Source: Pseudomonadota bacterium
GTDB lineage: Bacteria > Pseudomonadota > Alphaproteobacteria > Rhizobiales > Pleomorphomonadaceae
NCBI GenBank assembly: GCA_018262505.1
Contig: JAGSYV010000057.1
Coordinates: 1 to 64,000 of the forward strand
Direction of reading: 5' to 3'
DNA length: 64,000 bases
The stretch's first letter is position 1, and every line of letters starts with the position of its first letter. The position numbers and the translations under genes are program-made. Below the pieces are notes generated by a model that made no database searches, was not told the origin of the DNA, and saw only the letters and a program-made list of their open reading frames with translations. This document shows, in pieces, positions 15,298-47,653 of this stretch.

Positions 15298-16335
15298 ATG
15301 AGGGGAATCGCCCGTCTGGCCCGGGAACTCGGCGTGTCCACGGCCACCGTATCCCGCGCGCTCAACGGCAATCCCAACGTCAACGCCGAGACGCGGCAGA
15401 AGGTTCTGGAAACGGCGCAGCGCCTTGGTTATGCCGCCAATCAGGCGGCGCGCTCGCTTGCCCAGGGCGTCACCCATTGCGTCGGCCTGATGATCGAGCT
15501 CGATCAGGAAAGCACCGCCAGCACCGACTATTTCTTCATGGGGGTTGTCGAGGGCATGCAGGCGGTTCTGGCCGCCCATGGGCTCGACCTCCTGGTGCTG
15601 CCCTGCGCCAAGAGCCAGGACAACTTCACCTTTCTCCAGCGCTTCGTGTCGCGCGGCGCCGTCGACGGCATGATCCTCGCCGAAACCAGGCGGATCGACC
15701 CTCGCATCGATCTCTTGCAGGAGTCGGGCATTCCCTTCGTCACGTTGGGGCGAAGCGACAGTGGCAGCGGCTATTCGTGGATCGACCTCGATTTCGAAGG
15801 GGTCATGGCGACCGCCGTCGATCGCCTGGTCAAGCAAGGCCACAGGCGCATTGCCGTGACGGTGCCCTCCAGCGATGCCAACTACGGCGCCATCTTCGCC
15901 CAGGCCTATCGCGACAACCTCGTCCGGCACGGCCTGGAAGTCGACGAAACGCTGATGTTCCCGACCCGCCGTCGGGAAGACGACGGCGACAGCGTCGTTG
16001 ACGGTCTGCTTGACCGGCCCGCCCCCGCCACGGCGATCATCCTGTTCTACGAGGTGACGGCCATCGGCATCTACCGGCGCCTCGCCGAAAGGGGTCTCAA
16101 GCCCGGTCGCGATCTGTCGGTTATCGGCTTTCGTGGCGAGGACTCGGTGCGCTTCCTGACGCCGCAGGTCACCTGCTTCCACCTGTCGCTGCAGGACCTC
16201 GGCATGGCCGCGGCCCGCGCCATGCTGGCGCAGATCCCCATGACGGCCTCGGATGTGTCGCCGGGCGTCGTGCAGTGCCGGGTGCCCCTGTCGCTGGTGC
16301 CGGGCGAGAGCGACGGGCCGGTTTCGCGGCGCTAA
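15298..16335 (+). CDS. LacI-family transcriptional regulator
   Basis: 345 residues. The start MRGIARLARELGVSTATVSR follows GGAGGA; the helix-turn-helix and the hinge helix with LAQG are canonical, followed by a periplasmic-binding-like sugar domain with the WIDLDFEG segment. It is divergent from the GH31/ABC operon, with two operators between them, so it most likely represses that operon and itself until an alpha-glycoside or its product binds. Confidence 0.93.
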   Translation: MRGIARLARELGVSTATVSRALNGNPNVNAETRQKVLETAQRLGYAANQAARSLAQGVTHCVGLMIELDQESTASTDYFFMGVVEGMQAVLAAHGLDLLVLPCAKSQDNFTFLQRFVSRGAVDGMILAETRRIDPRIDLLQESGIPFVTLGRSDSGSGYSWIDLDFEGVMATAVDRLVKQGHRRIAVTVPSSDANYGAIFAQAYRDNLVRHGLEVDETLMFPTRRREDDGDSVVDGLLDRPAPATAIILFYEVTAIGIYRRLAERGLKPGRDLSVIGFRGEDSVRFLTPQVTCFHLSLQDLGMAAARAMLAQIPMTASDVSPGVVQCRVPLSLVPGESDGPVSRR

Positions 16336-16681
16336 ATCCTGAAACGGTCCGCATGGCGTCAGGTCAGGATCGCCCAAGCTGCTGGAGCGCTGCTCTTCTC
16401 ACCAACAGCCTGACGAAAACCCAAAGCCATTCAGGTGACTGTCAGCTTCACATGGTCTTCTGTCCGATGATGGCGGGCGAGATCATCGCTCGGCGCAATC
16501 ATGTCGGGAATTCGTGTGGTAACCCGCCATGCGGCGCGATTGGGGGATTGAATGGACATGCCAGACGCGCCCTTGCCGCGTCTTGAACGCCGACTGCGCG
16601 ATGGCGTCGGGCAGCGTCACAACGGCTGACGAAGCCGATTGTGCCATCACGATCTGAAACAACTCGACCTGCGAGCTCGAT
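16336..16681. other. Intergenic region without recognised content
   Basis: About 346 bp between the LacI-type gene and the membrane protein pair. I see no convincing coding frame, hairpin with a T run, or repeat. It probably holds the promoter of the downstream pair. Confidence 0.4.
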
Positions 16682-17239
16682 ATGCCGGTGATACTTCGCA
16701 TCCGAAAATACCATGCCTTGTTCGTGCTTCTGGTGCCGATCGCCTACCTGTCGGCTGAGGAGGGCGATATCCACTTCTGGGTCGGATATGGTCTTCTGGC
16801 CGTTCTTCTGGCGTGGTTGCTGTCGCAGCTGTTCGGCGGGCGCCAGAGCAGGCTGTCGCGCCATCTGCCACGATTTGGCGGAATGACCCTGGCCGATGCT
16901 CTGACACATCGCGCGGTCAGCAAGAGTCTGGTTCTCGGAATACTCCTGTCCCTCATCGGCACCGTCGGCACCGGTGTGGCCCTCGACCAGGGGCAGACGC
17001 TGGGGATCGCCCAGAGCGAGATGGTCACGCCTGCCTTGGCCGACGACGGTGAAGGCGATGAGGAGGGAGGCGAGCGCGAGAGAGAAGACGGCGGGTTGCT
17101 TGGCGAGATTCATGAGACGCTGGCCAATCTTCTCATGATCTTGATCGGTGTTCACATTGCCTATGTCCTGGTCCTCAAGCGTTCGCTGGCCAAGCTGATG
17201 CTGTTCTGGCCTCAGGGCAGCGCCAACGCGGCACGCTGA
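16682..17239 (+). CDS. Cytochrome b561-like membrane protein
   Basis: 185 residues with four hydrophobic segments. The pairing RKYHALFVLLVPIAYL / DIHFWVGYGLLAV and, near the C-terminus, LGEIHETLANLLMILIGVHI gives four histidines in the positions used for haem ligation in the bacterial cytochrome b561/Ni-hydrogenase b-subunit family. An unusual acidic, Gly/Glu/Arg-rich loop (about residues 120-140) precedes the last pair of helices. It is short for the family and the start lacks a strong ribosome site, so a distant or divergent member. Confidence 0.6.
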   Translation: MPVILRIRKYHALFVLLVPIAYLSAEEGDIHFWVGYGLLAVLLAWLLSQLFGGRQSRLSRHLPRFGGMTLADALTHRAVSKSLVLGILLSLIGTVGTGVALDQGQTLGIAQSEMVTPALADDGEGDEEGGEREREDGGLLGEIHETLANLLMILIGVHIAYVLVLKRSLAKLMLFWPQGSANAAR

Positions 17240-17271
17240 TACCCAATCGGCGGCAACTTCAGGAGCACCAC

Positions 17272-17649
17272 GTGAATTTGGAAGATCTTTTCAAGCAAAC
17301 CAAGGGCCGGGTTTCTCAGAAACACCGCTTCCCTCACGAGCATTCCTCGGATCGAGACGATCGTTTCGGAGGAATCGGCGCGTTGCTCAATCGCGCTCAA
17401 CGGAATGGCAAATACCGCGGTGAAGAACACGACATCTCGTCGGTTCTGAGGCCCATACTTCAGAACAGAGGCCTGCTCATCGCGGCCCTTGTAATCCTCC
17501 TGCTGCTGGGACTCTCGGGGCTGGCCATCGTCCTGGCAGCTTTGCCGCTCATCGAAAGTGCCTTCGCTTTTCTGCTCGAAAACGGCCTCGGCGGGGTCGT
17601 GGATACGGTTACGCCCTATGCCGAGAAGATCTGGAAGGGCAGCAACTGA
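17272..17649 (+). CDS. Hypothetical small membrane protein
   Basis: 125 residues, GTG start, 32 nt after the b561-like gene and probably co-transcribed. The N-terminal half is hydrophilic with many His, Arg and Asp residues; a hydrophobic segment (LLIAALVILLLLGLSGLAIV) follows, then a second weaker one. No family recognised. Confidence 0.55.
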   Translation: MNLEDLFKQTKGRVSQKHRFPHEHSSDRDDRFGGIGALLNRAQRNGKYRGEEHDISSVLRPILQNRGLLIAALVILLLLGLSGLAIVLAALPLIESAFAFLLENGLGGVVDTVTPYAEKIWKGSN

Positions 17650-17752
17650 GCGCACTTTCCGAGTAGGTCGATCCACTCCCGGGACCTCTGGCCTTGCCGG
17701 TTGTCGCACCGACGGCGTCGTAAACGAAGGCGATGGGCCGGTGTTCTGGCGT

Positions 17753-17793
17753 TAGAGCGCTGTTCGATCTGATTGAATCAGATCGGCGCTCTA
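17753..17793. repeat. Palindromic intergenic repeat (GATCTGATT type)
   Basis: Outer arms TAGAGCGC / GCGCTCTA enclose an inner perfect palindrome with arms CGATCTGATT / AATCAGATCG. The same architecture recurs at 31365, so it belongs to a dispersed REP-like family. Confidence 0.7.
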
Positions 17794-17809
17794 AGCTTTT
17801 CTTTTGGAA

Positions 17810-17852
17810 GCATCATCTTGTCGATCCTCGTTTCACTCCGGTCGGATGATGC
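17810..17852. repeat. Second palindromic unit next to the first
   Basis: Arms GCATCAT / ATGATGC enclose GATCC and GGA, and TCTAAG follows, as after the preceding element. Probably a degenerate member of the same family placed in tandem. Confidence 0.45.
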
Positions 17853-17896
17853 TCTAAGCCAGGGCTCGGCCGCTGGAGAACGTTGGCTGACCCTTT

Positions 17897-18217
17897 TCAA
17901 GACAGGATGTCAGTGGCCTTGTGGTCGGGATCGACGCCGTCGATCAGGATGGCGACACCGGACGAATTGCCCGTCCTGAGCGGCAGGATCGCGCGATAGG
18001 CGGGCGAGTCGTACCAGGCCCGTGCCGTCGCGAGGTCCGGGAAGGCGATCACGATCAGATCGTCGGGCCACGAGCCCTCCAACTCGATCTTCGGACCGCC
18101 GTGAATGATGAACCTGCCCTCGAAGGGGGCGAGGGTCGCATCGATGCGTGTGAGGTAGGTCACGATCTCCGGTCCCATCTTCACGTCGGTCAGCCGTGCC
18201 ACTGCGAAGGCGGCCAT
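17897..18217 (-). CDS. DUF1330 family protein
   Basis: 106 residues, ATG MAAFAVARLTDVKMG preceded by GGAG. The segment DDLIVIAFPDLATARAWYDS followed by PAYRAILPLR is the hallmark of DUF1330, a dimeric ferredoxin-like (ABM-type) fold. Function unknown; members are cytoplasmic and often stress- or detoxification-linked. It is divergent from the NTF2-like/XRE pair, with a 23-bp palindrome between them. Confidence 0.88.
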   Translation of the reverse strand: MAAFAVARLTDVKMGPEIVTYLTRIDATLAPFEGRFIIHGGPKIELEGSWPDDLIVIAFPDLATARAWYDSPAYRAILPLRTGNSSGVAILIDGVDPDHKATDILS

Positions 18218-18301
18218 GCGCTTTCTCCATCCGTCGTCGATCAATGCGCCGCACGGGTTGTCCGGGGCTCGCAGCAAGCCTCGTCCGTCAGGGCGGTCCG
18301 C

Positions 18302-18324
18302 TCAATTACCTCCGAGGTAATTGA
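18302..18324. promoter_or_regulatory. Perfect palindrome, possible operator of the XRE regulator
   Basis: Two 11-bp arms TCAATTACCTC / GAGGTAATTGA around a single C. It lies between divergent genes about 85 nt from the DUF1330 start and 130 nt from the NTF2-like start, well placed for control of both. Confidence 0.6.
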
Positions 18325-18373
18325 AGCCGCGACGGGCTGCCCTCAGTCTTGCCTCTGCGAACGACGCATCCGA

Positions 18374-18417
18374 GCAATTCCAGCAAAAGTGGTTTGCGGT
18401 TTTGCGTTGGGAATTGC
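18374..18417. repeat. Rhizobial-type palindromic intergenic element
   Basis: Arms GCAATTCC / GGAATTGC with an inner AAAA/TTTT pairing and the core CAGCAAAAGTG. Elements of this form are scattered between genes in many Hyphomicrobiales; only this copy is seen here. Confidence 0.5.
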
Positions 18418-18451
18418 GTAGACGCAAAAAGACTGATCGTTGGAGGCAATG

Positions 18452-18823
18452 ATGACCCATGCAACTGAGATCGCAGCCCGCTATATCGCCGCCTGGAACG
18501 AGAAGGATCCGTCGCGGCGAAATGCGCTGCTGGCGGCGCACTGGACCGAAGACGCCGAATATGTCGATCCCATGATGGGCGGCAAAGGGCGAGGCGAGGT
18601 GGGGGCGCTGATCGGTGCCGTCCATGAGCGGTTTCCGGGCTTCCGCTTTGCGTTGTCGGGGAACGCCGACGGCTATGGCGACCGGGTGCGCTTTTCCTGG
18701 ACGCTTGGCCCGGAAAGTGAGCCCGATATGATCGTCGGCACGGACTTCGTTCTTCTCGACGACCATCGGATCAAGGCGGTCGCGGGTTTCCTGGACAAGA
18801 TTCCGGCCGGCGGCTCGGACTGA
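18452..18823 (+). CDS. NTF2-like/SnoaL-like domain protein
   Basis: 123 residues. The start is ATG MTHATEIAARYIAAWNEKD, 5 nt after GGAGG. The YIAAWNEKD start, EDAEYVDP strand and FALSGNADGYGDRVRFSW pattern match the SnoaL/NTF2-like cone fold used by ester cyclases and small hydrolases. Catalytic identity cannot be read. It is 12 nt upstream of the XRE regulator gene, so one operon. Confidence 0.8.
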   Translation: MTHATEIAARYIAAWNEKDPSRRNALLAAHWTEDAEYVDPMMGGKGRGEVGALIGAVHERFPGFRFALSGNADGYGDRVRFSWTLGPESEPDMIVGTDFVLLDDHRIKAVAGFLDKIPAGGSD

Positions 18824-18835
18824 CGGAGGGGGACG

Positions 18836-19645
18836 ATGGAAGAAACTGTTCCGAGGGCGAGCGATTTCCTGCGCAGCTGGCGGCAGCGGCGCCGGCTCAG
18901 CCAGCTCGACTGCGCGCTCGAGGCGAATATCTCGCAGCGGCACCTGAGCTTCATCGAAAGCGGTCGCGCCACGCCCAGCCGGGACATGCTGCTCCATCTC
19001 GCCGAATGCCTGGACATCCCGCTGCGGGAGCGCAACGCCGCGCTTCTCGCGGCGGGGTTTGCCCCCGTCTACCCGGAACGGCGACTGGACGATCCGATGA
19101 TGAGCGGTGCCCGCGAGGCGGTCGACAGACTGCTGAAAGGGCATGAACCGTTCCCGGCGCTTGCCATCGACCGTCACTGGAACCTCCTAGCGGCCAACGC
19201 CGCCCTGGCTCCCTTGCTCATCGAGGTCGAAGACCGGGATCTGCTCGCCCCTCCCGCCAACGTGCTGCGGCTCAGCCTTCATCCGAGGGGGCTGGCGCCG
19301 CGGATCGCCAACCCTCCGGAATGGCGGGTCCATCTTCTCGAGCGTCTGCGACGCCAGATTGCCACCACGCAGGACGAGGCGCTGAGCGGGCTTCTGGTGG
19401 AACTCGCTGGCTACCCCAGCGACACCGCGCGGCACGAGGCGTCAGCCGAGCATGGCGCCGTTCTCGTTCCTTTGCGCCTGAAGACGCAGCGCGGCGAGCT
19501 GTCGCTGATTTCGACGACCACCGTCTTTGGCACGCCGCGTGACATCCTGCTTTCCGAGATCGCGATCGAGGCCTTCTTTCCGGCCGATGCCGCAACCCGC
19601 CAAATCCTGGAAGCCTGGCCGGCGGTGTCGTCTGCCAGTGCCTGA
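18836..19645 (+). CDS. XRE-family regulator with MmyB-like ligand-binding domain
   Basis: 269 residues. The N-terminal helix-turn-helix (SQLDCALEANISQRHLSFIE with SGRATPSRDMLLHLAECL) is followed by the MmyB-like C-terminal domain (PF17765 type): FPALAIDRHWNLLAANAAL, then WRVHLLERLRRQI and the final TTTVFGTPRDILLSEIAIE. These regulators bind small hydrophobic ligands. It probably controls its own operon through the palindrome upstream, and possibly the DUF1330 gene. Confidence 0.9.
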   Translation: MEETVPRASDFLRSWRQRRRLSQLDCALEANISQRHLSFIESGRATPSRDMLLHLAECLDIPLRERNAALLAAGFAPVYPERRLDDPMMSGAREAVDRLLKGHEPFPALAIDRHWNLLAANAALAPLLIEVEDRDLLAPPANVLRLSLHPRGLAPRIANPPEWRVHLLERLRRQIATTQDEALSGLLVELAGYPSDTARHEASAEHGAVLVPLRLKTQRGELSLISTTTVFGTPRDILLSEIAIEAFFPADAATRQILEAWPAVSSASA

Positions 19646-19664
19646 CACTTTCGGGACGAAGGTC

Positions 19665-19692: not shown

Positions 19693-19845
19693 ATTAGTTT
19701 TGGAATGCGGTTCGCAGGGACGACCCGCACCTTCCAGAGGGGAACAGCTGAAGATTCGCTTTCGCGGATCATCGGTGTTTTCCGTTAAGGGAAAACGCGA
19801 GTCCTGCGCGGGATGCACAATGATACGTTGGCGATGTTTGCCAGG

Positions 19846-34527: not shown

Positions 34528-34924
34528 TCACCTGAACATCACGTCCAGAATCTCGTAGCCACGCGCGCCCCCGGGGGCGGTGACTTCCACGGAATCGCCC
34601 ACCGACTTGCCGATCAGGGCGCGGGCGATCGGCGAGGAGATGGAGATGCGGCCGCCCTTCACGTCGGCCTCGGCATCGCCGACGATCTGGTAGGTCTTGT
34701 GTTCCTCGGTGTCCTCATCGATCAGCTTCACCGTGGCGCCGAACTTCACCGTCTTGCCGGTGAGCTTGGAAATATCGATGATCTCGGCGCGCGACAGCAT
34801 GTCCTCGAGTTCGGAGACGCGGCGCGATCGCCGCGATGATGCGAGGCCGTTCCTCGGATTTGCGCCGCTGCAGCTCGCTCTCGAGAGCGGCATGCCCAGC
34901 GGCGGTCATCGGGATCTTTTCCAT
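34528..34924 (-). pseudogene. greA: Transcription cleavage factor greA with internal frameshifting deletion
   Basis: The N-terminal part from ATG 34924 reads [18 protein letters not shown] to RIIAAIA, and the C-terminal part in another frame reads [13 protein letters not shown] to the end of a normal GreA C-domain. Between them, near 34830, the usual segment of about 26 residues is missing, including the DLSENAEY tip whose acidic residues coordinate the catalytic metal. The remaining 397 nt plus 77 nt would restore a 157-residue protein, so about 77 nt are lost and the frame is broken. As read, no functional GreA is made. A second greA copy, or a sequencing/assembly error, is possible. Confidence 0.85.
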
Positions 34925-35125: not shown

Positions 35126-38563
<3,438 letters not shown>

Positions 38564-38818
38564 CTTCACTCGCGTGTAAACGCGGCCGGTGCGCGGGGCA
38601 CCGACCGGGGCGGGCAGCAAGAAGGGTGATCGTCGTTCGGACCGTTGCCGGGCTTATAGAGGAAAAGCGCGCGGCCGCAAACCCCGCTCCGCTTGAATTG
38701 GCGGCTTTGTTAGGCAGGTTTGCGATTGGCGCAGCTCTGTATCGTCTCGCAAGCTGGAGCCGTTGCTTTTGCTCATGGGGGCAGGGTATCGAAAGGGGCT
38801 GGAAGCGGGGAGGCGCGA

Positions 38819-46800: not shown

Positions 46801-47653
46801 ATGCAGTGGAGAGGGCGTCGCCAGAGCGACAACATCGAAGACGTCCGGGATAGTGGTGGTGGCTTTTCCGGCGGCGGCATGCGCTTTCCAGGCGGCGGCT
46901 TTGGCGGTGGCGGACGCGGCGGTGGCCTTTCCATCGGCGGACTGATCGTCGTCGGCCTGGTGTTGTGGTTCCTCGGGATCAATCCGCTGGTGCTGCTCGA
47001 CGGCAGCATGGGCAGTTCCACCCTCGGCAGCGGCTCGACGGCCATCGATCGGCCGCGCGCCGGCCAGCCCGACGAGATGCGCGATTTCGTCGCCACCGTG
47101 CTGGGCGACACCGAGGATACTGTTTTCCGGCCAGATGCGCTCGGCCTGCGGCTTTGCCAGCGCAGCGAGCGGGCCGTTCTATTGCCCCAACGACGGCAAG
47201 GTCTACATCGACCTCGCCTTTTATGATGAGCTGCGCCAGAAGTTCGACGCGCCCGGCGACTTCGCTCAGGCCTATGTGATCGCCCACGAGGTCGGCCATC
47301 ACGTGCAAGACCTCCTCGGCGTGCTGCCGGCCTTCAACCGGAAGCGCCAAAGCCTCGGCGAGGCCGCCGCCAACGCGCTGTCGGTGAAGGTGGAGTTGCA
47401 GGCCGACTGTTACGCCGGCGTCTGGGGCCATTATGCCGAGAAGAAAGGCATTCTGGAGCGCGGCGACCTCGATGAAGCGCTGAACGCTGCCACCCAGATC
47501 GGCGACGACGCCATCCAGAAGCGGACGCAGGGCTACGTGGTGCCGGAAAGCTTCAATCACGGCTCGTCGGCCGATCGCAAGCGCTGGTTCAAGATCGGCT
47601 TCGACAAGGGGGATGCCGGGGTGTGCGATACGTTCAAGGCGACGAGGCTTTGA
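46801..47653 (+). pseudogene. Neutral zinc metallopeptidase (YpfJ family) with frameshifting deletion
   Basis: The first frame gives the family N-terminus MQWRGRRQSDNIEDVRD, a Gly-rich stretch, a membrane span and DFVATVLGDTEDT. The second frame gives LFSGQMRSACGFASAASGPF and the zinc site AYVIAHEVGHHVQ with the downstream AADCY-like glutamate region (ELQADCYAGVWGHY). The linking segment of about 19 residues (WxxIF to LVL) is missing near 47120, with a frame change, so roughly 55-60 nt are lost. As it reads, the catalytic domain cannot be translated from the normal start. A sequencing error is possible. Confidence 0.85.

Follow-up and report, generated by a model that had tools for sequence, protein, structure and literature searches.

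A frameshifting 77-nt gap in greA of a Pleomorphomonas-group draft genome is probably an assembly artefact

Results

The greA gene examined here lacks 77 nt that carry the catalytic tip of its product, and we consider it very probable, from comparisons of sequence, that this gap arose in the assembly. Faulty assembly is the most likely source because other conserved genes in this draft have short gaps like it, and greA is most likely intact, and would work as usual, in the living organism. A first-pass annotation of this DNA had been titled for a non-functional GreA and had also allowed that the assembly had lost a short segment; given the similar gaps elsewhere and the lack of decay in greA, it is the second of these readings that we favour.

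The stretch of DNA analysed, hereafter the window, spans positions 1-64,000 of contig C179 (75,189 bases), which belongs to a 5.28 Mb draft in 257 contigs with an estimated completeness of 89.85%. Within it, greA runs on the minus strand from an ATG at 34924-34922 to a stop codon at 34530-34528, and a single reading frame of ~157 residues was not found for it. The first part, a ten-residue opening through to RIIA, codes for 31 residues, at which point the frame breaks; the remainder, which opens with a 15-residue stretch and extends from RVSELED through DVMFR to the stop, is read in a different frame. Profile searches found the N-terminal coiled-coil domain incomplete and the C-terminal globular domain present (Table 1).

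Table 1. Positions in the window of the greA halves, of neighbouring or affected genes and of the junctions at which bases of relatives are absent.
Feature	Position	Strand	Evidence
greA 5' part, first coiled-coil helix up to RIIAAI	34824..34924	-	PF03449 positions 1-31 of 71 only; 31 codons stop-free
greA 3' part, RVSELED to stop with globular domain, other frame	34528..34823	-	PF01272 E = 1.3e-28; no premature stop
greA junction, 77 nt of relatives absent, 0 shared bases	34823..34824	.	4/4 syntenic relatives
carB, carbamoyl-phosphate synthase large subunit	35126..38620	-	NF003671 1627.5 bits; mechanically listed ORF, true start probably further in
carB junction, 57 nt absent, in frame	35282..35283	.	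4/4 relatives
Intergenic junction, ~144 nt absent, conserved in three relatives	19764..19770	.	Alignment with G012, G010 and G003
Putative neutral zinc metallopeptidase frame	46946..47653	+	PF04228 positions 117-290 of 290 only; 5' part in other frame

We compared greA with its syntenic counterparts in four genomes of the same genus, namely G012 (a genome in one contig), G010, G003 and G001. At the junction, no base of the window faces 77 bases of the relative in all four alignments, and this is not a chance alignment because the flanking 60 nt on each side are 85-98% identical across the four comparisons. The absent stretch corresponds to 26 residues in most same-genus relatives, and its loss both removes the part of the protein that bears the DLSENAEY motif and shifts the frame. 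The first-pass annotation was thus accurate in its coordinates, in the 77 nt that it held to be missing, in the loss of the DLSENAEY stretch, in the placing of the two halves in different frames, each of which is free of stops when read in its own, and in the length of the restored gene, since 397 + 77 nt give 158 codons, or 157 residues and a stop. The acidic residues of the tip, which we take to fall within DLSENAEY, are absent from the product of the gene as it stands.

A complete PF03449 match (positions 1-71) and the motif DLSEN(A/S)EY are retained in all 29 loci of our first set of relatives, and DLSENxEY is kept in 80/80 loci when the best 80 of 429 from a search of named genomes are considered; the two sets overlap, with some genomes in both. 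Natural variants of greA that lack the tip were not seen among these 29 relatives and best 80 of 429 loci. At greA, the closest of the named relatives belong to Pleomorphomonas; a conspecific genome to compare with was not found. In E. coli GreA, the tip acids are given as D41 and E44 (PMC7527559).

The rest of the genome was searched for a second greA, as the first-pass annotation had proposed, and none was found; the model of the GreA N-terminal domain matches the broken gene only. In a draft that is 89.85% complete, this failure to find a second greA or a greB leaves their absence unproved. The model of the GreA/GreB C-terminal domain has one further match in the genome, on contig C15. We rejected this protein as a second GreA on account of its Rnk_N N-terminus and lack of a GreA coiled coil, and it scores 136.3 bits against NF004396 (nucleoside diphosphate kinase regulator; cut-off 109).

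Unless it happened very recently, a real deletion leaves signs of decay behind. Purifying selection is retained in both halves of greA when each is read in its own frame. For the C half compared with G012, dN is 0.026 and dS is 0.268, while the intact pair from G012 and G010 gives 0.057 and 0.528. We found no relaxed selection and no further disabling changes in either half, with dN and dS like those of intact relatives and no stop codon, and the low dN/dS and stop-free halves rule against greA being a decaying pseudogene.

The greA gap has company within the window. The neighbouring gene, carB, has a gap 459 nt away that removes 19 residues in frame from the C-terminal MGS-like domain, of which profile positions 2-58 of 94 are matched; in one of the alignments with G010 this gap appears split. 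In the zinc metallopeptidase gene, 56 nt are absent near position 47120 with a change of frame, as judged against G012, the sole fetched relative that aligns there. The intergenic gap of ~144 nt was called against G010 and G003, and against G012 is uncalled and visible in the alignment. Separately, at the corresponding place, G012 lacks ~3.3 kb of the window (16320-19657) and G010 roughly half of that segment.

Twenty further stretches of the same genome were sampled, eight of which were mapped to G012 and G010, with the matching regions and some extensions of them taken for comparison, and one gap detector was run on the window and these eight contigs. This covered 251,860 bases, of which 213,518 aligned to G012 and 199,489 to G010. 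Segments common to both relatives and absent from the window's genome occur at seven sites: 77 nt in greA, 57 nt in carB, ~3,460 nt on C60, 42 and 22 nt on C10, 86-87 nt on C40 and 87 nt on C20. The reverse case, a segment present in the window's genome and absent from both relatives, occurs at none. Applied to the relatives in that output, this rule gives one site at which only G012 is without a segment (25 nt, C40) and two at which only G010 is (36 nt, C15; 93-95 nt, C20), so that sharp losses in unrelated genes are in excess over the relatives, with seven specific to this genome against one and two. G012 alone carries an extra segment at two sites (100 nt, window; ~141-144 nt, C100) that both G010 and the window's genome lack, which indicates that sharp differences in length also occur between other genomes. 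When every pairwise call is counted, including those that the third genome leaves unsettled, losses number 11 in this genome against 4 in G012, 11 against 4 in G010, and 4 against 4 between G012 and G010.

Several points bear on how these counts are read. The number of specific sites is small, at seven, and the weakest is that on C40, whose junction with G012 does not resolve. Because the window was picked for its gap, the two sites in it raise the rate artificially; with the window set aside, there are five sites in 187,860 bases. The defect is patchy, with no gap specific to this genome on half of the eight contigs (C30, C15, C100 and C140). Despite the division of the draft into 257 contigs, there are no Ns in the window or in 19 of the 20 sampled stretches, the remaining one (L140) being all N.

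The genes hit on the other contigs encode an ABC ATPase (42 nt; ABC_tran/OB_MalK), a GH20 protein (22 nt; Glyco_hydro_20), a thiamine-binding protein (86-87 nt; Thiamine_BP) and a PMT-type protein (87 nt; PMT_2). Together with greA, carB and the zinc metallopeptidase gene these make seven short coding gaps, four of which shift the frame (77, 56, 22 and 86 nt) and three of which keep it (57, 42 and 87 nt). Abrupt larger losses were also observed, of ~3.5 kb at 10446 in L131 (contig C60) relative to both relatives, and of ~1.9 and ~5.4 kb at 2531 and 5531 in L129 (contig C40) relative to G010; these may be real differences in gene content or larger drop-outs.

A gene-by-gene count of intact, split and stop-containing genes did not separate the three genomes by splits or stops (137/6/6 for the window's genome, 136/5/8 for G012 and 136/4/12 for G010), many of the split and stop calls appearing to be antisense or over-extended ORFs that blur it. 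Within this count, the only support for an artefact comes from in-frame losses of at least 14 residues, of which there are three in the window's genome and none in G012 or G010.

Short direct repeats are often the points joined in real deletions. By a simple measure, which set out from alignment ends that overlap at some sites, the junctions have 0-3 bases in common, and on re-checking, the best junctions share 0-1 exact bases at all eight short gaps, the one on C40 being resolved against G010 only. With 0-1 exact shared bases at resolved junctions, deletion between repeats is unsupported. A hairpin or GC cause is likewise unsupported: the dropped segments have a GC content (0.51-0.71) near that of their flanks (0.53-0.72), and only one of the eight, that of 42 nt, ranks with the most stable folds nearby.

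Discussion

Because the gaps are sharp, recur and outnumber those of two relatives, and because greA shows no decay, we infer that they originated in the assembly and not in the cell. The draft would then contain places where correctly ordered and oriented pieces have lost tens of bases from between them, or perhaps a few kilobases, with no Ns to mark the loss; greA would hold one such drop-out and carB, 459 bases away, another. Joining of pieces over an unassembled gap without filler is an example of a route by which this might arise. A counterpoint is that the junctions have no shared stretch where a k-mer assembler would need one, and such an assembler would not jump without it.

The alternative that survives best is that a genuine recent deletion inactivated greA, with transcript cleavage lost or left to the activity of RNA polymerase itself and too little time elapsed for decay, although we regard this as unlikely. 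The sequence as given does lack the segment between clean flanks, and life without GreA is possible, greA mutants having been described in the literature (e.g. PMC3078854). Three of the seven short gaps in coding sequence preserve the frame, a pattern that real deletions under selection could likewise give, and by the gene-by-gene count broken genes are in no general excess in the draft. Against this, greA, carB, the zinc peptidase gene, the ABC ATPase gene, the GH20 gene and others would each have had to suffer a recent deletion of their own, at a higher rate than in the two relatives compared; neither half of greA is under relaxed selection, and no similar loss occurs among the loci compared. 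That a 5-Mb bacterium recently underwent a burst of deletions in unrelated genes is less probable than that ordered pieces were joined across unassembled gaps. The full scenario, in which a burst of small deletions, with hardly any shared bases at the junctions, has really only now removed the catalytic tip from the sole GreA of a free-living Pleomorphomonas-group alphaproteobacterium, as well as short stretches of carB and several further genes, strikes us as quite improbable.

Least plausible, to the point of being very hard to credit, is that the 121-residue ORF at 34893-34528, which starts with ATG and spans the C half with its well-conserved globular domain, encodes that domain with a new N-terminus as a factor that only binds RNA polymerase: its first ~20 residues derive from N-half DNA read out of frame, while it is the original frame of the N half that is under selection, and the tip motif is lost in none of the compared loci.

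If the gaps are, as we favour, drop-outs of the assembly, the consequence is one of caution, in that broken conserved genes in this draft genome are not to be read as biology without a check of the reads. Roughly extrapolated to 5.28 Mb, seven losses in 251,860 bases would mean such places numbering on the order of a hundred. Were the loss in greA true, it would mean that loss of GreA is tolerated in a species where no other Gre factor was found.

Compared with known systems, the gene in the window most closely resembles greA of Pleomorphomonas spp. (e.g. P. oryzae DSM 16300, locus L045). It lies beside carB, as in the four syntenic relatives, and its protein identity to 10 same-genus genomes is 87-100% for the N half and 90-96% for the C half; the relatives differ in having the 26-residue tip stretch with DLSENAEY, whereas the window greA is without the 77 nt. 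The Rnk-type regulator on contig C15 has the GreA/GreB C-terminal domain in common with GreA, and differs in carrying Rnk_N where GreA has its coiled coil. Spurious pseudogenes made by assembly are a known problem (PMC11017572). The case described here is like those treated by Cooley and Wright (2024, PMC11017572) in that conserved genes seem broken in an assembly; the problem described there involves frameshifts and internal stops, whereas the draft genome of the window has sharp losses of at least 22 nt.
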